Made by a program: the position numbers and the translations under genes. Below, piece after piece: positions 13,543 to 51,700 of a DNA stretch of 64,000 bases. The stretch is from Astropecten irregularis (taxonomy: Eukaryota > Echinodermata > Asteroidea > Paxillosida > Astropectinidae). The notes under the pieces were generated by a model, which saw only the letters and a program-made list of their open reading frames with translations, was not told the DNA's origin and ran no database searches. The stretch's first letter is position 1. Every line of letters begins with the position of its first letter. The DNA lies in assembly GCA_963971285.1 (NCBI GenBank), contig OZ020256.1, positions 2,792,501-2,856,500 of the forward strand, written 5' to 3'.

Positions 13543-13640
13543 GGGCTGGATAGCTCAGTTGGTAGAGCGCCTTTATAGTATTCAGAAGGTCGCCGGTTCG
13601 AATCCCGCTCCACTCAATTTTTCTTTGTACACTTTTCAAT
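13543..13640 (+). repeat. tRNA-derived SINE (A and B boxes preserved)
   Basis: A tRNA-like head contains tagctcagttggtagagc (A box and D arm) and ggttcgaatccc (B box and T arm). The acceptor arms pair imperfectly. The anticodon region is about 3 nt too long for a regular 5-7-5 stem-loop. The head runs into an unrelated AT-rich tail shared with 5945-6012. These points favour a SINE over a functional tRNA gene. Confidence 0.75.
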
Positions 13641-20700: not shown

Positions 20701-23700
20701 AGAGGTAACTTACATTACAAAATACATACTTAACCGTGGAAATGCCCATTACTTTTATTGTTTTCTCAATGGCTTGATCTTTCAGTGGAATTCATTAATT
20801 TGTTCTTTAACTTTTCGGAACCCAATCAAAACATCGTACTTAAGTATTGATGCTGAATTGTTCAACTTTTGACAACTTCCAAAACTTGTTCGGATTTTTA
20901 AGCCTTACACACGATGCCAACGACACGGGCCATTGAGCCACTTCTAACGGTTCAACCCGCCTATTAATACGGGAGATTTGGGCAAAGAAAATATCAAGCA
21001 GGGCGGCTTAGAGGGGAAGACAGATACGGCAAGATGGAGAATGAACGGCCGACGAGGGAGACATGTAAAATTATCCTGCGTGTCCTAATTGCTTGAGGAT
21101 GTGGAGAAGAGATGATTGGCGAGACCTGAAGCAATTAGAATCCCGAAGTCCACATCTAGGTTACATTGAGGGGCCAGTTTTTCACATTTCAACCCCTGTG
21201 CAGGATGTTTAAAGACCATTTCAGGTCATTCTTTCTCTTTCTTCTGTCTGGATCAAATATTATAAGAACAACCAAGGCACACCATTCATTCAGTAGGATT
21301 CCACGCAATCCAGCCGTTTCCGGTCCAATGCATCCTTCCAGCTTATTATTCAGCATCATCAAAGTCAGGCAACCAGTCATTCTCCTGAGGACGAACAGAG
21401 CACACTGTTCGGAACGTCGAGATAATAGCAACGGTTCTTCTCAGAACCACACACTCTCACAGAAGATATTACATGGTGTCACCGCAAACCTACCTTCCTT
21501 TTAAGGTACACCATGCTTCTGTGTGGTTCTGTAAGAACTGGATCCCAATTACATGATGCCACTTCTTACCAAAATCATTCTGCACTAGTACAGTGCACTT
21601 ATGTTCATAATTCCTCGATTCCAAGGTTTCAGTAATGTATTTCCACAATAGCTAAGTAAGACAGAATCGAAAGGCAAAAAAGAATCTCTCCCCTAGGATA
21701 AACACCCCTGCCTTGCTTAACTAAAAACTAAACATCCTTGCAAAATCCATGAAATAGGATCTTAGTACAGACTTCCCTGCTTCCTGAAGAGCTGATGCCT
21801 CCTCCCAGTTTCCAGACCCATGAAATTAGACCCAGGTGCTAACTCACCTTTCTGGTCAATATCACATTATAAGACAAATCTCTCCAGAATCACTGTGACA
21901 CTATTTAGAAGGAAACAAAACAAACCAGTAGGTGGGGTGGGTTTAAAAGTACTAAACTTGCACTTCTTGACAGCTCATCATTTATGCCATGTAGGCCTAC
22001 ATCACAGAAAGTACATGTCTGCAGGCCTACATCATCACCAGCATGAGTTGTCATTGTAGCAAATGTTGGACATCATTATGAAGGTGTTAACAAATTAGCA
22101 TCTAAGTCAGGGTTTCCATCTTCTTTTCAAATTTTCTGCATCTAGGATGTGTGCACAGTTCACAGTGTAGGCCTATTTGCAAACCTATGTGTATGGCTAT
22201 GGAAAGAATTGGTGGGTGGGGCTGGCTGTGGTAGTCTGGTAGACAGTCTTTGAAAATTATTTTATTCTTTGCCACCATCAAATGTTGTCCTTTTTGAAGA
22301 GCAGAGATAATGAATAAACTGGTAGAATCCATGAAACTAGGTCTTCACAATGAGAATGGAATGCACCAATGGAATGACTGTAACAACCAAAGCTAGATCT
22401 GTAAGCTGTTACACAACAAAATTGCTCAAAAATCAAGAAAACATAAAATTTACCAAATCATTTGGTTGTTTAGATTGAAAAAAATTTCCCAAAACTAACA
22501 CTGCATTGACCAGGGAACGATTCTGTCTGAGAATAGTCCCACAACTTTTTCCAAAAGTCCAAAACCTTTTTTGATGCCACCCAGAAACTCAGTCATCAAT
22601 CACACTACAGGTGTAACCTACATACCAGACCTAAGCAATGATAGCCCAGGCCTCCATGCTACTACTGCACAACCTTCCATTTCACCTCTCAAATATTTAC
22701 GAGACACACACAAGTTGTAAACTAAAGCTGTAGGTTTATAGGAGAGCACCCAAGGGACTGCAAAGACAATAACTATTTCCCCCTTTTTTTCAATTTTAAG
22801 AGCTTCACTTTTGAGTCAATCATATTGCTCCTAAAATCATATTGGAATCAGTCAATCTACAAAAGTTAAGAAATTCAAATGTTTAATACCCTTGCCAATT
22901 GCCATTATTGTTAAGCCAACAGAACTAAATAGGCCTCTGTAAAATTACCAAAAAGAATCCTAAAACCTACTAGTTCAGACTTTCCAATTTTTTTTTAGCC
23001 ATGAAGGAGCCTCCACAAGAATTGAACACAAATTGCCAGGTCAAAAGAGCAGGAATTGTTGCATGTGTAAAACACAAGATTGTTTCAGTTGGTACATCAA
23101 CAGACCGATCTTTACCCAGGGCTCCACGCTCCCTCAAGTCCCATTTTCTTGCCGCGGCCGTGACAGATTTACACATCCTCTGATGTAGATTATAGGAACC
23201 AGTGAAAAATACAGCACAGAGTTGATATAATAAAACACCACAGTGGCATCTCAAATGACGGGATACCGATGAGCAAGTCTCGATCCCGTATCATAATTGG
23301 ATTTTCGCTCCCCTTTCCCAAGCGACTGAGATTTTTATACTGTTGACAGTTTTGTTATATATGTCGGGCAAACTGCAATTTTAATAGGTTTTTCTATTTT
23401 GGATGATACTTATCAAATTTCTTGGTTTTTTTTTATTATCTGCTGCAGTATAGAGAATGACACAGGGGTTAATATGCCAATTGGAAACAAAAGCAAGAAT
23501 ATGGGAAATTTACGACTGTGTACAGAAAGTGATCTTTCTTGCCAAGGCGGTGCAGTAGCAGGAGAATATTTAGACAAAGAAATATATGTGCAACCAATGG
23601 AAGCATCAATCTTTAGATGAAACTGTTCCAGAACGATTAAAGAGGAAAATAGACAAAAAAACAACGAAGGTAATCCTAGTATTGCAGTGTTAACAATTCT

Positions 23701-29800: not shown

Positions 29801-30306
29801 ATGTTTTCAATTACAAAAAAAAAATTAAAATAATAATTGCCAAATTAGATTTATAACAGCAAGTAACTGTACAGAACATCTTAAATGCATCATGCTTGTC
29901 AAGCAAAAAGGAATGAAAAAAGAAAACATGTGAGATTTTAGCTTGAAATTACAAAGGCCTACATAGGCCATATGCAAAATGTATCTTTGTATCATGCTAA
30001 AAACTGGAAGGTTCTTTTCGGACATACATGATGTAGCCTATGTATTCCCCTTGTCCACAAGTATTTGGAAGGGAGTTTTAAGATGATTCAAATAGGCCAA
30101 GTCATGAGTTTGTTAACTTTCAATCTGGCAATGATTCACAAATAACTGAATTCCGGATGTATACAGTATGGATGTAATCAAGTCTCGGATCACCATGACC
30201 TCATATGACGTGGGAGTTCAACTCACAGATTAAATTAATGCTCAATGGCTAAACAATGCATCCCAGCCTTGATATGATCTGCCAACAGAGGGCAGCGCAG
30301 CACACA
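26817..30306. other. Noncoding stretch, no gene recognised
   Basis: No supportable gene. The block 28950-29280 is GC-richer and open in two overlapping plus-strand frames (28857-29156 and 28913-29131), but neither has a recognisable domain or clear splice sites. TAGGCCTA palindromes occur near 27787 and 29365. Confidence 0.45.
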
Positions 30307-30312
30307 CTGATG

Positions 30313-30793
30313 GATGCACCACACTAAATAGCTCAAAAATCAATGCGCCGAGCTGATTATCATAATGTGTGTACCCTCAAATGTTTTTTAAATATGCAAT
30401 TTGGGGGGTCGTGCAATTAATATATTGTGTAATTTTGACTGGTTATGACAACCTGGGGGTTCAGTGTTTCAGCCTGTTGTGGAGACTTGAGATATTTTGG
30501 TTTAAAATCCGGTCCTACATTGTCTTGAACGTGGAGGGTTGCTTCATGAAAACTCGTAGCAAGTCGGTTACGGAAGAAGGACATTTCGGGGGTGTTTTTT
30601 TCTTGGGGCAATTAGCAAAAAATCCAATCGGTTACCCAACCAAAAATTGAAAAGAATTGGGTAGATGAGAGTTCACACTATCATTTACACTATTGCACCA
30701 ACAACTGAGAAACTTCTGGATGGGGTTTTTTGAACTGTAAAGTTGACGTATTTTACACTAAAGTCAATGGGAGTTTATTTAGTGTGGTGCACC
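30313..30793 (+). repeat. Left 481-bp direct repeat of the composite element
   Basis: Bounded by an 18-bp imperfect terminal inverted repeat. It contains an open frame of 93 codons (30369-30650) that is identical in the right copy. The frame has no domain and its conservation is explained by the recent duplication, so I do not call it a gene. Confidence 0.88.
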
Positions 30794-31757
30794 CTATAGG
30801 TCACAAGATGGCGGCGCATCGGTAGCTATTTTGTGATAGCGCCACCACTCTGTTGGGGGAGGCGAGAACGAAAAGAAGCTGTATAAGACCAAGTTTCTTA
30901 TCAGATTTTGTTAATTATTTCCTGAAAACATCATTCCTAATACACATAAAACCTTGTATTACGCAACTTACATTGTCTTTTCTACACCCTACGAGTTTTG
31001 TTTAGACGAAGGTGGCCCAATTTGTAACCCTATTAGATCCAAAATAGTAACCCTAGCCGGCCGAAATTCCAACCCAATCCCCTAAATTGTAACCCTAGTT
31101 CCGCAAATTCAATCCTATCACCAGTTTTAAACCCTAAATCGCTCTGATTCCAACCCTAACCCCAGCCGGGGCCCCAGACCTAGACCCAACCCTAGCAAGC
31201 CCCGCCCACACGCTGACAACCCTAATCGCCTCTTTCTCACTTTTCAGAGGGGAAATGATATTCTCAAGGACAGCGAAATTTGGTGAAATGTAATATGCAT
31301 TGATTAATCCCATAAAAGTTCATCATTATGTCTCAATATGGATACTGGGGCAGAAATATTCCACGGAATATCCCAAACGCCCCCCCCCCCCCAACCAAAC
31401 AGGCCAACCTTGACCTTACACCACTTTTCCATGTGAAATGACACCCTCGCCTTGATTAATTAAACTATCTGTAATGGCCTGCGCATCATTGCATCCAATA
31501 TAGCCATAAGATAACTTTGTGAGGAAATAATATGTGGAATCAGAGCCCGACTTTCCATGGGGTGTACACAATATTATAATGGAGAATGTGCACGTTTGTA
31601 TGGCCACCACGGGTCAACGACCTAACACATTAAGCCGTGCCGTAGAAAAACGCAATAATGTTTTTCAATTTTGTTTTCACATATGAGATCAGTGTCATAA
31701 ACTCTACATTTTGGGCTTAATTGGACAACCAATTTTGAAAGTTGAGCCCCCTTATAG
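30794..31757. other. Core of the composite element with spaced AACCCTA words
   Basis: Between 31026 and 31223 the word AACCCT occurs seven times (starts 31026, 31049, 31091, 31130, 31152, 31188, 31218), nearly always followed by A. The spacings, 22-42 bp, are irregular. The rest has no coding capacity that I recognise. A run of about a dozen C lies near 31380. The sequence resembles a decayed tandem array rather than a telomere. Confidence 0.6.
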
Positions 31758-32238
31758 GATGCACCACACTAAATAGCTCAAAAATCAATGCGCCGAGCTG
31801 ATTATCATAATGTGTGTACCCTCAAATGTTTTTTAAATATGCAATTTGGGGGGTCGTGCAATTAATATATTGTGTAATTTTGACTGGTTATGACAACCTG
31901 GGGGTTCAGTGTTTCAGCCTGTTGTGGAGACTTGAGATATTTTGGTTTAAAATCCGGTCCTACATTGTCTTGAACGTGGAGGGTTGCTTCATGAAAACTC
32001 GTAGCAAGTCGGTTACGGAAGAAGGACATTTCGGGGGTGTTTTTTTCTTGGGGCAATTAGCAAAAAATCCAATCGGTTACCCAACCAAAAATTGAAAAGA
32101 ATTGGGTAGATGAGAGTTCACACTATCATTTACACTATTGCACCAACAACTGAGAAACTTCTGGATGGGGTTTTTTGAACTGTAAAGTTGACGTATTTTA
32201 CACTAAAGTCAATGGGAGTTTATTTAGTGTGGTGCACC
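31758..32238 (+). repeat. Right 481-bp direct repeat of the composite element
   Basis: Same length, orientation and apparent sequence as 30313-30793, including its 93-codon frame (31814-32095). The lack of visible divergence implies a recent event, gene conversion or an assembly duplication. Confidence 0.88.
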
Positions 32239-34734
32239 CTGATGTCATCCTGAAGGCCACAAACACAGAACCAGACGATGTTGTGGTATTGGTATAAATA
32301 TAGACTCAATGCTTCAAATTCCAATAGGACAGGTGGCTATTTGAACAGTGTGTTTGGCTTCAACAGTGACTCCCATGAGGCAATAGGAATCAATTGCTAT
32401 ATCGAGGAACAAGCATGATCTATGAGATCATAGCTTTAAGGGTATGACAAAGTAGGAAATGGTAGATTAGTATTATTAATTGTTGACCTTAACTTAAAGA
32501 TTCACGAGTGAGTGACTAAAATAGGCCAACTACAATAGGGTATTATTAAGCCTACTCCCTGATTTACTTACAGCAGCCGTATGTCTGGTTCACACTGTTG
32601 GGCCTCAAGACGGAAGTACTGTAGCTCTCATTGAATCTGAGGCTGGAGATTTCTTGGGACATGAATTTCATCAAACCCACTCAAAATTTCTTCAAAGTTG
32701 GAGAATAAACCCCTTTAAAGGGGGTGTGCATATTTTTAATTTACATGAAGCGTGGCAAGTCACAAATAAAAATGCTGCCAATGTAGCCTACATGAGTAAA
32801 ATTACAGTCAGGAACAGAAGTAGTTCTGATCATGATCGTAAGCCTTGGTGTGCCAATTATGTCATGATGGCATGGACCTAGGCTAGGGTAATTACATGTA
32901 TACCGCATGATCATTGCGAACTAAATCAAAAGATAATGTAAATTGTCTGCTGTTGTTATAAACATCACACTTCCCTGTCCCAGTTTTGTGCAAGGGCTCA
33001 TACAGGATGTTTCATGTGGTTCGAGTGCTGTTTCCAGCTATGTTTAGTGATTTCCTGTAATTATGAAAAACTCTACCCACATACATGCTTGGCCTTTGAA
33101 TAAGCCGATTAAAAAGGTCAAATACAGGCCTCCATATTCACAGATGATTTGTAGAAGGCCAATGATAGGCTGCAATCTGGTGCTACTCGTGTCTCTTCAA
33201 ATCTAGGCCAATGACTAGACCAAGTCTGAAGTTGTCTGTGTTCAAGTTGGCCTCCAATTATCTGTACAATATTTGATTCTGATCTGTGTACTGGTGTATG
33301 TATGCATTGTACTAATAGGCCTACAGTATGATGATATTTGCAATGCAAACACAATATTTGGCACAGTGTTTGCACTAGTTCATATCAAAAATGCCAAGCT
33401 GATGATGGGTCAACAACAACTTGACTCCTAACTGCCTTTGTGTACATAATTCCTATTTCAGATGGTTTACTTGGAAAGATTTGTGTCAGGAATGTTTGTG
33501 GGTTGGACGAAGTGAAGTGGGGGGGGGGGGGGGGTGCTGTCTGAGCCCAGGCAGGCAAACAATTGAGATTCTGTACTATGGATATTATTTGGTCAGTTGA
33601 CTTAAAAAACACAAACTGTCGCGGGCTATAAACAGACTGGTGATTTCATTCTTGAACTTTGGTGGAGCAAGGGTATATTTTGGGTTTGTTTGTTTTTTGG
33701 CCGTCTTTGGTTTTACACTAGTTTCTGGATAAATACAGCATTTAACTTTTAAGGTAGAAAAATGTGAATGGTATGTTTCTACTATCACCATAAAAATATA
33801 CCCTGTAAGTTAGGTAAATCTGTGACGATTTCTGTTTTGGTATGGGCCTAAAACACGTAGTACCTTTAACAATATAGGGACTACATGTACCAGTTCCTAC
33901 TGGAACATACCACAGTTCTTGTGAAAAAAACCCACAACGTTCTTGTAAAAAAAAAGTAGGCCTAAATGGTAACTGTACAAGTCCACATTCCAATGCTTTC
34001 TAATTAGCTTGAAATATTGGCAATACACTTTGGAACACTGCTTAGGATTCAATTCAGAGTGTGAACAAATAATGATCATACCACCTGACATAGTGCTGTG
34101 GAGTGGGACAATGTAAGTTGAAATCACCCAGACACACATACCAAGCATGTCACTCAACACTCTCAAGTGAGTGACCCCTGAAAAACATGGTTGTTGATAT
34201 AACCAGAAAAATGACTGAGTCTAGAAATGACTTGGTTGAATAAAGAACTATGATTCTGACAACATTCTTTCCTTCAAAGTTCTACCAATCTGTAAACTGC
34301 ATGTATGTAGCCCCAAACCCCATACCTCTTTCCACAAACCACTTCAAGATTGGCCAAGGATCCAAACCTCCCTCTATCTCCTCGTCCTACTAACAATCAA
34401 CACCAGCAAATGAATAGTTGACGGAGGCAAGAAAAATGAAACAATCCGTTAATCCGAGAGGGCCATCCCCCTTCCGTCCACAGTAAGGACACATCAGCGC
34501 TACAAAGAGGAGTTCTGCTAGCATCATTCAATGGCAGCTTCTGGGAAAAGGTGCGAGTGAGGACTCAGTAGGATGCCGTAATTGGAATTGCGGGGAGAGA
34601 GAGGCAGAGGAGAGCGAACCGCCATTTTAGCAATCACAGTTTTTCTGTTGGCAAACATCGATTGGCTCAGGATCATTTAGTCGGAAGAATGCAGAGCTGA
34701 TAGCTTACTCAATGGTGATCAGAGAAGTCATGGT

Positions 34735-41040: not shown

Positions 41041-41048
41041 TATAACTA

Positions 41049-41711
41049 TATGGGCGGCCAAAAGGGCCAAAATTAAAAAAAAGTTAAGAAGGACAAACAA
41101 AACATCTAAAGACCAAATTTATTCAAAGAAAGGACAAATCAACAAAAGAACAAATACACGAAAAGAACAAATGTAAACCAAAAGACAAAACTAGAAGAAG
41201 ACAACTTCACAAGAAGACAAAATCGAAGTCGAACAAATGACAAAATGGCAAAAGGACAAATTTACAAACAGACAAAACCAAAATCAAACAAAGAACAAAA
41301 CGGCAAAAGGACAAATTGACAAAAAGACAAATCCAAAATCAAACAAAGGACTGAACGGCAAAAGGACAAATTTACAAAAAGACAAATCCAAAATCAAACA
41401 AAGGACAAAACAGCAAAAGGACAAATCTTCAAAAAGACCAAACCAAAATCAAACAAAGAAAAAAATAACAAGAGGACCGATTTAAAGAAAGACAGTAAAA
41501 AAACAAATCACGCGCAAAACCTCAAGAGGACGAATGCACACAATTAAGGACGAAGTGAAAATCAGACGACCGCTATTACACACAACCATGTTGGAAAACT
41601 GAAAAGGTCACTCACTCACACAAGACGAACATTTTCACAAACGGACAAAGGTCGTTGCGAAGAGAACTGACCAGCACCGAACGATGGGGGCGGCCCCCAT
41701 TCTCTGTCTCA
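41049..41711 (+). repeat. Left arm of the foldback element
   Basis: Lysine/glutamine/asparagine-rich frames (41237-41485) are by-products of the A-rich tandem units. The arm is A-rich on this strand and its complement at 42821-43437 is T-rich. The unit aaaggacaaa with a downstream caaaatcaaacaaag recurs several times. Confidence 0.88.
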
Positions 41712-42820
41712 ATTGTTTTTGGAGGTCCCTTTACAATTTTAGTGGAAAACCTGCTGGAGTGAATTCCCAGGAGTACTATTTGCCTCATTCTCAGGGCATA
41801 GATCTGGTTCACTGCTGTAGCACATCCGTTACGTAATACCCTAGCTAAAACAAACTGGAGTACAGCCACTGTGTGTTCATTATGTAGGCCTACTGCATTT
41901 ACTGTACATTAAGTACATGTACATGTAGTACATGCCCACATTTAGGGTACTTTCTCTTGGCTTGTGACAACTGCAAAAAATCTGGTAAACTCTTGATTTT
42001 TGCATGGCCCTGCAATTGAAATCAATTAAGTTTTTAACAGTCTTATTTTACTACTAATGAAGGGATTGAAGGCACATGAGGAGCAAAAGACGTCTGCTAG
42101 TATATATATAGGCTGTCCCTGCCGATTTTGAATTATTTTGCTTGACAGCTCGCTTGACATTGTGGATTTTCAACTTTACAGCTACAGCCTACAAGCATAA
42201 ACTTCAAGCATACAATTTAAAATCGTTATAGCCGTTAGACGGAACATGGAGGAAGGAAAAGATCCTTTCATGGGGTTCTCATAGGCCTACGTACATTGTG
42301 ATCGAGAGCAATACAACAACATGGTGATTTAAATATTGGAACACATTGCACTGTTTGATTTGGAGTCTTTCTTTTTTCGTATACCTCCACACAATTATTG
42401 GAACAAAACAACATGTATAGGCCCTAAACCAATTTTTTTTTAAAAATCGTCCTTCCATTGGAGAAGTTATCCTTTTTATAGCTCCATGGTATAACTATAT
42501 CAAAGGCCTCACCACCCCCCCCCCCCCCCCAAAAAAAAAATACATATATCAACGAGATTTTCTTCGTGAAATGGTTAATTGGCACAAATTCCCCCCGCCC
42601 CCCCCCCCCCCCAAAAAAAAAAAAGATAAAGAAAAAGGGAAACCCTGATGAAATAACCAGCGCCTTCTGCTGGAGACAGACAACATAATTATAACTCATC
42701 CTATAACTTATACTATAAGACCGCATCCTAGCTTTGTGGTATTTATCAGAATATTCAAGCTCGGACTGGAGTGAATGGGAAGCCTGTAAGCCCAGTCCAC
42801 TCGTTTCGAAAACGATCCAT
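41712..42820. other. Spacer of the foldback element
   Basis: About 1.1 kb with no recognised coding sequence. It contains two C-run plus A-run tracts (42515-42540 and 42591-42624) and a TAGGCCTA palindrome pair near 41885 and 42283. It may be captured host sequence. Confidence 0.6.
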
Positions 42821-43437
42821 GGAGACAGAGATAGAGATTATATAAGTCAATGGGGGCCGCCCCCATCGTTCGGTGCTGGTCAGTTCTCTTCGCAACGACC
42901 TTTGTCCGTTTGTGAAAATGTTCGTCCTGTGTACGTGAGTGACCTTTTCAGTTTTCCAACATGTGTGTGTGTAATAGCGGTCGTCTGATTTTCACTTCGT
43001 CCTTAATTGTGTGCATTCGTCTTCTTGTGGTTTTGCACGTGATTTGTTTTTTTACTTCTTTCTTTAAATCGGTCCTCTTGTTATTTTTTTCTTCGTTTGA
43101 TTTTGGTTTTGTCTTTTTGTAAATTTGTCCTCTTGCCGTTTTGTCCTTTGTTTGATTTTGGTTTTGTCTGTTTGTAAATTTGTCCTCTTGTCATTTTGTC
43201 CTTTGTTTGATTTTGGTTTTGTCTGTTTGTAAATTTGTCCTCTTGTCGTTTTGTCATTTGTTTGATTTTGTCTTCTTGTGAAGTTGTCTTCTTCTAGTTT
43301 TGTCCTTTGATTTACATTTTGTCTTCTCGTGAATTTGTTCTTTTGTTGATTTGTCCTTTGTTTAAATAAAATTGATCTTTGGATTATTTTTTTGTCCTTC
43401 TAAACATTTGTTTGATTTTGGCCCTTTTGGCCGCCCA
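42821..43437 (-). repeat. Right arm of the foldback element
   Basis: Reverse complement of 41049-41711 with small unit-number differences. The T-rich tandem units read gtcctttgtttgattttggt on the plus strand. Confidence 0.88.
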
Positions 43438-43562
43438 TATAACTAGACTACAACATTTTTTAGGGAGAGGGGTGGTTGTGAGGAGTATTAAGTTTGACGG
43501 TTACAAAAGTTTCAGAATGAATTTCTTTTTAAGACACCGAGTTGAAAAATTGAAGATTGTAT

Positions 43563-48300: not shown

Positions 48301-48405
48301 AAAGACGAGTTCAGGAATAATATACATGTATGAGGAGGAGGGCATTACGAAGTAGAGTGGTGTAGACTGCGGTTCTTGCTCGCCGAAGCTCATAGCCTGA
48401 TCGGA
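45346..48405. other. Noncoding sequence upstream of the PAN-lectin gene
   Basis: AT-rich sequence without a recognised gene. Two overlapping frames at 46676-47102 have no domain. The proximal promoter of the downstream gene should lie in the last few hundred bases, but I cannot point to a convincing TATA box or initiator. Confidence 0.45.
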
Positions 48406-48729
48406 ATGACTCGTCCGAAGTTTAATATTCGCCTGATTTTATTTGCCGTTCCCATCTGGATCCTCCAGATTCTTCTCTGCGCTCAAGGAAGGGTCAATGG
48501 TCCAGTATGTGGTCTAGTGGGCTACGTCTTGGCGACCTCGAGCTTCAATGAGTCCATAGCGGCCACGCAGGGACTCTGCTTCGGTGCGTGTCGCCGGCTA
48601 GCGGAGTGCAAGTCGACTAACTACTTCTTGGCGACGCGGGTTTGCGCTCTCAATAATGTGTCGCATCTCGACGGCTGCCTGAAGATGACGGTTTCACCGG
48701 GGAGTTTCTACGCATTCCGCGCCTCATCG
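48406..48729 (+). CDS. Exon 1: signal peptide and PAN/apple domain
   Basis: I chose the ATG at 48406 because it opens directly into an ideal signal peptide (MTRPKFNIR, then LILFAVPIWILQILLC); upstream in-frame sequence has no ATG. The exon has 108 codons up to the strong donor gtaagt at 48730, which is phase 0. Using that donor with exon 2 gives about 20 out-of-frame codons and a TAG at 51067, so a PAN-only secreted protein. Ending instead at 48733 (donor gtcata) keeps the lectin frame. Confidence 0.85.
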
Positions 48730-51700
48730 GTAAGTCATACTCAAGAAGGTATAACCTTATGAATCCGTGGGTTTTGATTTCACCAAATTATTCGTAACTT
48801 ACTATCAATCGTAGGACTTTTGATGCATTGAAGCCCTACGTGACTAAGGCCCCTACGATGGGTTATCCTTCGTAACTCGAGTTACGACCGATCGCAGAAC
48901 TTCGTGAAATCGACCCGTATGTAGTATGTGGATCTTATACCAATCGCCTACTTCACACGTTGGCCTTAAAATTCGTCCACACCATGGTCAGGAATCTATA
49001 AAAAAAATTATGTAATCAAGGTTTTCACGGCCGATTTTACATTTTCTCGACTCCACCCAACTTTGGTAAAACCATAATTCGATTTCGTGTGCTTTCCAAC
49101 AACAGGGTAATGCTGTTTCTAGGTAAAAAGGCGCGTGGTGCAAGCCCGGTAAAATATAGCGCCACTTATTCCAAGTTTTGATGCCAATGAAAATACAAAA
49201 CAGACATTTTGAACTTGGAATCATTCTTTGTTTGTTCATTTGATTAGATTTCCAATAACACACAATAACGCCAGATATGCCAATCCTCTGCACACTACTA
49301 CCATCTATTCCCATGCGTGATCAATGGAGTATTTATACTTGAGAAAACAGGCAACAATCTTAAAGATACAGTACCAAATAATTATGTGTAATTAAGTTCC
49401 ACGTACAAAAATAAAAGTAGAAGCAAATTGTGGTTTAAAGATAACGTTCTGTAATACATAAACTGCTAAGCGTTTTACATATTTCACTTTTAGAATTAAA
49501 ACAATAAAAACAACCCTATACATGATCTGCTTGTGAGACATAATGCACAGCATAGCGCAACACCGCGTGAATCGTAATAACATAATAATTATTTATGACG
49601 ACCGGAAATTATGATTTTGCCAATTGATATTTTAAAATTCGTCGGCGATATAGAATTATGCAAACTAGGTTTGCCCTTCATGCACCGACGTAGATCAGCA
49701 CCGAATACTCAGTGTTTTTCGCACTTGAAAATCGTGCGCTGGCTCAGGTGATGGGATTCGAAACATTAATTGCATGTATTTCTCACGTACCATACTAAAC
49801 CTACAGTCTGACAGTTGCACGACGCCTTCCGCTAGACAGACACAAACTAACTCATGGACTGAGCAAGGTAAGCGAACAAGAGATATTTACTGCGCTACCA
49901 AACTATAGGCCGAACCATCCTCACAAACCAAAAATGTCTATTACAGGTGATATCATACTTTGGTTTTTGTCAAAGAAATATAGATTTATGGGCAAGGATA
50001 TCAAGGAAGATTCAGTCAAAATCATCTGTGAAAATGTCAGTCCCATACGGTGCCTCCTTTTTGAGAAAACAGTGAAGAACGGCCACAATATTTCTTAAGG
50101 CTTTTCTCTGTTATTTTTGTTTATCTTTATAAGATCAACAATAATTTTGGCCACTAGTTTTCCTCTTTTCTTGATAAATACAGCATTACGGGCAGAAAAA
50201 TGTTAACGGTATGTTTCTACCATCACCATCTTTATACCAAAGTATGATACTACCTTAAACAAATGTAATTGCAATAGAATCAGACATTGGATGCTTCTCA
50301 CTTCTACTCACGGTGATTTGTCTTTTCTTTCACTCGGATTATTTCTGAAATCCGTTTGTATGAGTGAAAAAGGTCTGGTCGCTTGGTCGGTTGATCTATT
50401 AGTCTATTTGTCGGTAGGTTGGCTGGTGGGTTGGTCTGTCGGTCGGTCGACCAGTCGGTTGACCAGTCGGTTGTCTGCCGGTCTGTCGGTTGGTCGGTTG
50501 GTTAGTTGGTTGGTCAGTCGGTTGGTCGGTTGGTCGGTTGGTCTGTCGGTTGGTCGGTTGGTTGGCCGGGCAGTTGGTCTGTCGGTTGGTCTGTCGGTTG
50601 GTCGGTTGGTCTGTCGGTTGGTCGTTTGGTTGGCCGGTCAGTAATTGGTCTGTCGGTTGGTCGGTTGACCAGTCGGTTGACCAGTCGGTTGTCTGCCGGT
50701 CTGTCGGTTGGTCGGTTGGTTAGTTGGTTGGGCAGTCGGTTGGTCGGTTGGTCTGTCGGTTGGTCGGTTGGTCTGTCGGTTGGTCGTTTGGTTGGCCGGT
50801 CAGTAATTGGTCTGTCGGTTGGTCGGTTGACCAGTCGGTTGGTTGGTCGGTTAATTGGTTGGCCTGTCGGTTAGTGGGTTGGTCTGCCGGTTGACCAGTC
50901 GGTTGGTTAGTCGGTTAGTCGGTTGGTTTAATTCCCTCCAAAATGTGCCCACGGATCTTATACATTTATTATCCATGTTCGTTTCACATTCTTCGCTTGT
51001 ATATAGATTTATCATTGGTCGGCAAACCCAGTGTGCAAAGTACCACCTATCGTACTAGAACGTTTGTAGCACATGCCCAGCTGGCCAATGACGGAAACAC
51101 GACTGCTGTGATACCGGGGTGTACACATACCAGTGAGTTTGATCATTTCCCATTGGATTTTCTTGTGATTGGTTTTGGACGCATTTCATGCTCACTTCCC
51201 CGACACAATCGAAAGGACATGCTGCTAACGTATACCTTCATGTGTCGGGGTGGGGGTTCATGGATATGGACGGGTAGCTGAGGGTGTGGGTGGGTTTGTC
51301 CATGAAAAATAAAAGAAAACCGTGCCATCAGTGAAGCGCCATTACTCGAGAAATGATTTTAGGACCATTTTAGCGTGGACACAATAGTGTTTGTCGTAGG
51401 GTCTATACCCCCGCCCCCCCCCCCCGGGGGGGGGGGGGGGGCAGATTTCACGAAGCACTAAGATTTATCTTAAGTGTGAACTCATCTTAATTGCTAAGCA
51501 ACATGTGATGTCACAGCATTATTTTTGTCTCTTCTACCCCCCCCCCCAAAAAAAAAAAAATAAATAAATATTGGCTCTAGAACCGCCCCTGCTGGGAACG
51601 AGGGGGTCCCCCAATAACTTCATCATCACATAAGCTCTTTCCAGCTGCTCCGTCTACTGCAGCTACGGCTCCGGCTCCGGCTCACACAATATTATTTTAA

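Follow-up and report, generated by a model that had tools for sequence, protein, structure and literature searches.

We identified, at C20:2792501-2856500 of a 475.7-Mb genome (168 contigs) of the sea star Astropecten irregularis, a unit in which two identical copies of a 483-bp element, hereafter M, enclose a core that is one monomer of a satellite. We consider it probable that M is a satellite-borne, MITE-like element whose outer ends can move M alone, M-core-M or a longer unit, and that its insertion is steered to sites beside a CTCF-like motif. The sequence itself shows the ends and target duplications of M, its composites with the core, empty joints between cores, an array flanked as a whole by a duplication, and the polarity and spacing of the motif; that transposition uses the outermost M ends and carries satellite DNA along appears to be their best reading. 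Below, "the window" denotes the whole 64-kb stretch of DNA that was analysed.

The composite unit in the window

The left copy of M (30312..30794, + strand; ends GGATGCACCACACTAAATA and TATTTAGTGTGGTGCACCC) and the right copy (31757..32239, + strand) agree at 483 of 483 bases, and the core between them (30795..31756, + strand) is 962 bp long, equal to one satellite monomer, with TATA at 30795-30798 and again at 31753-31756. The exact direct repeat measures 484 bp, because one flanking base is common to both copies. The inverted ends of M are 19 bp long with one mismatch, and the four ends of the unit gave four inverted-repeat matches, versus a mean of 0.27 in shuffled sequences. The layout proposed in a first-pass annotation of this DNA, two direct repeats around a core, each repeat transposon-like and bounded by inverted ends of its own, was thus borne out, while the sizes it gave (481-bp copies, 18-bp inverted repeats and a 964-bp core) had to be corrected. 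It had also placed a perfect 6-bp duplication, CTGATG, on the outer sides; these bases do occur on both sides, but the register is TGAT (left, 30308..30311; right, 32240..32243; neither assigned to a strand), since the solo and composite copies elsewhere in the genome show a 4-bp duplication. The outer C and G of CTGATG would then be part of the element or a chance match. No further copy of M or of the unit was found elsewhere in the 64-kb window. Thirty-three ORFs of 35 aa or more overlap the unit, and the 11 of them that were scanned gave no Pfam match above cut-off.

The window holds several other features. A large inverted-repeat, foldback-like structure with arms of ~200 bp (84-96% complementarity) and 55-bp tandem repeats inside lies at 41047-43441, and a minisatellite of ~500 bp of the GTCGGTTG type at 50410-50928. 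A histone 3' stem-loop match slightly over the gathering score was found at 21428-21472, and an ORF at 48334-48759 has a PAN domain match slightly over cut-off. A tRNA model match at 13544-13616 is absent from the output of ARAGORN, which reported no tRNA in the window.

M as a dispersed element

M is an abundant non-coding, transposon-like element of 483 bp with 19-bp inverted ends. When up to two mismatches were allowed, the inverted end had 956 forward and 1030 reverse matches in the whole genome, versus 6 and 2 for the reversed pattern. A 4-bp target duplication flanks 24 of the 28 solo copies tested (6/8, 10/12 and 8/8 in three sets), among which the M-spacer-M tandems L121 and L142 were entered as solos; the chance of a 4-bp match is 1 in 256 per locus. 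The search for single copies suggested by the first-pass annotation therefore did reveal dispersed solos, with duplications of 4 bp instead of the expected 6 bp. The duplication adjoins GGA and CCC of M, and the usual target has T at position 2 (36/51) and A at position 3 (37/51), a pattern that the TATA of the core does not share. The five solo copies L070-L074 differ from one another by 2.5-3.5% among the pairs listed, and empty sites of M were seen only inside the satellite. Judged by its 19-bp inverted ends and 4-bp target duplications, M is best read as a non-autonomous MITE-like DNA transposon. A genome search found no autonomous copy or transposase, the inverted end followed by C or T giving 17 scattered matches and no pair. 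The inverted end had no match in viral_contigs, and its sole match in genome_contigs, in a Saprospiraceae MAG (L001), was taken as chance.

A variant of M and a core-less tandem arrangement were also observed. The variant, M', has ~152 bp of its left and ~32 bp of its right end in common with M and a middle that is ~17% different (L077 and L081 compared); it occurs at L077, L081, L010 and L075, at the first two together with cores, a pattern that suggests either exchange or constraint on the ends. The tandem arrangement consists of M copies with only 4 bp between them and no core (L117, TATA; L121, CTAG; L142, TACT).

As to the loci scored, L104-L143 (n = 40) were drawn in list order from a set of 87 loci, with contig C1 and already known loci left out. 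L117 (M-TATA-M) is in neither the solo nor the composite count, and L109 was entered as having a duplication, an uncertain entry with a further M directly adjoining. We dropped L081 as an array fragment, L135 and L143, which continue into a further core, L139, with a degenerate right end, L141, for which no right edge was taken, C17:9836908, for which no edges were taken, and the truncated copies L106, L115, L128, L129, L136 and L140.

Composites of M and the core

Near-complete matches to the full unit occur on at least nine contigs (C11, C22, C21, C18, C1, C27, C8, C17 and C16), several of them in the form repeat-core-repeat-core-repeat. Perfect 4-bp outer duplications were found at 26 of the 30 composites (9/10, 7/9 and 10/11 in three sets), the two-unit composites L004, L006, C27, C8:12653 and C8:10250 included; the four without one (L080, L130, C16:10817216 and C28:9351010) each have TATA at one outer side. 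Two elements flanking a cargo, with the duplication at the outer ends, appear to constitute the layout of a composite transposon or macrotransposon. The core in the window and that of the C11 composite differ by no mismatch and a 3-bp indel, yet their duplications are TGAT and CTAT, respectively, which argues that a composite is mobile as a whole, and solos with their own duplications show that single elements are mobile too. The single cointegrate event envisaged by the first-pass annotation thus gives way to a family that recurs at many sites, where the insertions hold one or two cores and have a separate 4-bp duplication each.

Of 10 composites compared, 8 have M copies that are identical and 2 have copies that differ by 0.8%, and the variants of M go with the variants of the core across composites and arrays. 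These results disfavour an origin in which a circle of the core and one M entered a resident solo M by homologous recombination. Such an event would account for the like outer duplication and inner edges, both of which would come from the resident M, but it predicts M copies that differ as much as the resident and the circle do, by ~12 bases (2.5%), so we regard it as very improbable.

The core as a satellite monomer

The core corresponds to a ~960-bp satellite monomer, copies of which also follow one another head to tail with no M between them, at a spacing of ~958-963 bp in several arrays. A 32.8-kb array on C23 (905938 to 938701), with 14 M copies and 27 cores, has a spacing of 961-963 bp from core to core and of ~1447 bp where M lies between; it begins and stops exactly at M ends, and its flanks carry CTAC/CTAC. 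Two arrays on C1 have an M end at one side and N at the other. The core-core joint reads CCCTTATAGGTCAC, while the joint with M reads CCTTATA-M-TATAGGTCAC, and there are 60 exact copies of the core-core joint with a single TATA, spread over C1 (two arrays), C15, C17, C18, C19, C20, C23 and C30. This pair of joints, with and without M, is what would be expected if M had inserted and duplicated 4 bp of its target.

Two of the searches suggested by the first-pass annotation, for intact empty sites and for the core without the repeats, thereby had a positive outcome within the satellite, the latter, as far as checked, in arrays that also hold M. Its view of the inner edges as the old target of a single copy likewise agrees with the core-core joints, which correspond to the empty site, though the proposed 6-bp pair CTATAG/TTATAG gives way to a perfect pair of TATA. 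On the other hand, the same joint would result if M were lost from between its two TATA repeats, so an order in which M came first and was later lost also fits; at L117 the core is missing in the same manner as M is from the joints. No old core array free of M appeared among the 40 empty joints scored out of 674 candidates; these joints were 95-100% alike and, as far as checked, lay in arrays with M. We favour, without claiming proof, the order in which the satellite was present first and M entered it.

Two other arrangements of core sequence were noted. At L081 (C1:34313140-34316140), the repeating unit of another array is 2361 bp long and combines M' with the first half of the core and a further ~900 bp of other DNA, inside which a piece is 76% like M. 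The sequence CCCCTATAGGTCACAAGATGG, which resembles a core start but has a different left neighbour, occurs at seven dispersed places (C10:22590435, C12:16610500, C12:16783650, C12:16933346, C19:13982912, C19:15407721 and C19:15567588).

Proposed mechanism and alternative explanations

We propose that a copy of M sits in the ~960-bp satellite monomer, so that tandem arrays hold M-core-M-core-M. A transposase acting in trans may pair the left end of an M with a right end that belongs either to that copy or to one further along, and this pairing would move M, M-core-M or M-core-M-core-M as one unit; M alone, M-core-M and the longer units would thus be alternative cargos of one end-pairing reaction. 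After insertion, some composites would expand into tandem arrays where they stand, or would already have arrived as arrays. Several observations weigh against this proposal: the four composites without a duplication, the difference between the TATA of the core and the usual target, the absence of an old M-free array among the joints scored, the lack of an autonomous copy or transposase in the search described above, and the 13 loci and 8 right ends at which the motif of the right polarity is missing or reversed.

The first-pass annotation had proposed instead a replicative cointegrate, in which a small circle of the core and one M fuses into the target and M is duplicated. This explanation is unlikely, although it predicts identical M copies, an outer duplication and like TATA at both inner edges, and could explain the two-unit form by dimer circles. 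It is unnecessary because the satellite arrays already contain M-core-M, and no replicative fusion is required for this product if the left end of one M is used along with the right end of the M that follows; moreover, solo M copies with duplications would require resolution or separate moves. The source context that we found is a tandem satellite, which is formally circle-like but requires no circle, and the earlier interpretation as a whole was supported in part. To our knowledge, there is no established cointegrate pathway for animal cut-and-paste transposons, and a search of the open-access literature found none.

Quite unlikely as well is a TRIM, or gene-less LTR retroelement, with M as the LTR and the core as the internal domain, of which reverse transcription would make the repeats identical and recombination would make the arrays. 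The repeat-core-repeat order, identical repeats, 4-bp duplications, solos and tandem arrays are all compatible with it, the perfect stretch of the inverted repeat is TG...CA, and a plant TRIM, Cassandra, is described as forming tandem arrays in the part of that source available to us (PMC7215508). However, the inverted ends are 19 bp long, the duplication adjoins GGA/CCC and not TG/CA, and the core-core joints have exactly one TATA and lack the repeat. Neither core edge has a primer-binding-like TGG or T-loop complement nearby, and a purine run of 7 is absent; the first-pass annotation's failure to see a primer-binding site or polypurine tract was therefore reproduced by this simple string test on both strands. 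The lack of Pfam matches in the 11 of 33 ORFs scanned also speaks against a retroelement.

Finally, a re-replication composite insertion as for maize Ac, in which nearby termini insert ahead of a fork and the flanking DNA is re-replicated and rejoined, is highly unlikely, for although transposon termini with a target duplication around duplicated DNA are described there (PMC4270019) and such insertions behave as macrotransposons (PMC9910405), the maize insertions, in the portions of these reports available to us, have variable inner joints and kilobase sizes, while the inner edges and unit size are constant here and equal to the satellite period.

A CTCF-like motif beside the insertions

The flanks of the insertions often carry a motif like AGAGGGCGCT. 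In its 8-mer form, scored in the flanks on both sides of 54 loci, the motif turns its 3' side toward the element at 41 loci and has the other polarity at 4, and 13 loci lack a motif of the right polarity. The 8-mer was picked after inspection of the discovery loci, in which right and wrong polarity stand at 25 versus 3 (n = 36), and two sets (A and B) gathered afterwards gave 7 versus 0 (n = 7) and 9 versus 1 (n = 11). The number of right-polarity matches expected over the 54 loci is ~1.8 when the window rate is applied and ~5.8 with the rate of the far flanks, a control (1.25 per kb per strand) that is inflated because one of its stretches at L004 and at L006 is mostly element sequence. Some flanks are related: L003/L118 and L112/L127 have a common host repeat, and a few pairs have 15-33 bp in common. 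Exact patterns searched genome-wide, in counts that take in the discovery-set loci, gave 41 matches versus 0 for the flipped motif at left ends and 156 versus 8 at right ends, so that 197 of the 205 have one polarity. Four array ends are among the motif-flanked ends (C1:648233, C1:38683.3k, C23 and C30:36.7k).

The distance between motif and element is also restricted. Among the matches listed, gaps are known for 141 of the 197 (100 of the 156 right ends being listed), and they fall at 14-18 bp in 48 cases, 19-22 bp in 3, 23-28 bp in 61, at least 29 bp in 26 and at most 13 bp in 3. The clusters at 14-18 and 23-28 bp are about one helical turn apart, and the best gap period, 10.0 bp, was unmatched in 5000 uniform and 5000 smoothed simulations. 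In the window, the 8-mer core of the motif CCAACAGAGGGCAGC (30282..30296, + strand) is separated from the element by 17 bases; the CTCF identity of this motif rests on the consensus for CTCF and on the agreement outside the 8-mer. M within the core has a motif of like polarity at 45 bp; in the window this CTCF-like 8-mer (30840..30847, - strand) lies inside the core, 45 bases from the left M, with the polarity seen at other insertions.

Insertion would accordingly be steered to DNA lying 3' of the motif, for the most part at distances of 14-18 or 23-28 bp, and these distances fit a motif-bound protein that positions the transposase on one helix face. Outside the 8-mer, C at -4 (26/32), C or G at +8 (31/32) and C or T at +9 (30/32) agree with what we take to be the CTCF consensus. 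The 3' side of the motif would be the side on which the N-terminus of CTCF meets cohesin. We infer that the tether protein on the motif is CTCF, the simplest candidate, with a zinc finger of the transposase, or some other factor that recognizes similar sites, as a possible substitute. CTCF is present in echinoderms and other bilaterians (PMC13317027). The chances seem to us evenly balanced that this transposon family docks on CTCF, or through a transposase zinc finger of the same specificity, and inserts 3' of it in helical phase, with the composites seeding satellite arrays beside CTCF sites. In the open-access literature searched, we found no report of a transposon with a fixed polarity or phased spacing relative to a CTCF motif.

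Comparison with known systems and implications

One close likeness is to the macrotransposons and composite insertions of maize Ac/Ds, in which, as far as the available parts of these sources describe them, two elements behave as a single transposon through their outer ends, duplicating the target and carrying the DNA between them (PMC4270019, PMC9910405). Our case differs from these in its animal host, its non-autonomous elements of ~480 bp and its 4-bp duplication, as well as in its constant satellite cargo, its dispersed family and its motif-linked insertion. A TIR element joined to a tandem repeat, with formation of arrays, is likewise described for Tetris of Drosophila virilis (PMC4079207), for MITE/transposon-satellite cases in Xenopus (cited in PMC12628747) and for bivalve satDNA junctions (PMC5139131); in the portions of these sources available to us, the repeats lie within a single element, whereas here whole elements surround whole monomers, with the duplication at the outer ends. 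The Cassandra TRIM resembles our arrays in its gene-less repeat-core-repeat-core-repeat order, according to the available part of its description (PMC7215508), but the arrays reported here are without LTR hallmarks and have core-core joints without the repeat. Insertions of piggyBac and Tol2 in mouse ES cells are enriched at CTCF/cohesin sites (PMC5333637); as described in the part of that study available to us, this is an enrichment at binding sites, while the natural insertions here have fixed polarity and base-pair spacing relative to the motif.

The composites offer a concrete route for satellite DNA to leave its arrays and seed new ones, with MITE ends carrying entire monomers. If the link to the motif reflects docking on CTCF, this family would represent a natural transposon with polar, base-pair-scale targeting to an architectural protein, in which the choice of safe sites could be tested directly; it might also give rise to repeat arrays at domain boundaries and could guide the design of tools for site-directed insertion.
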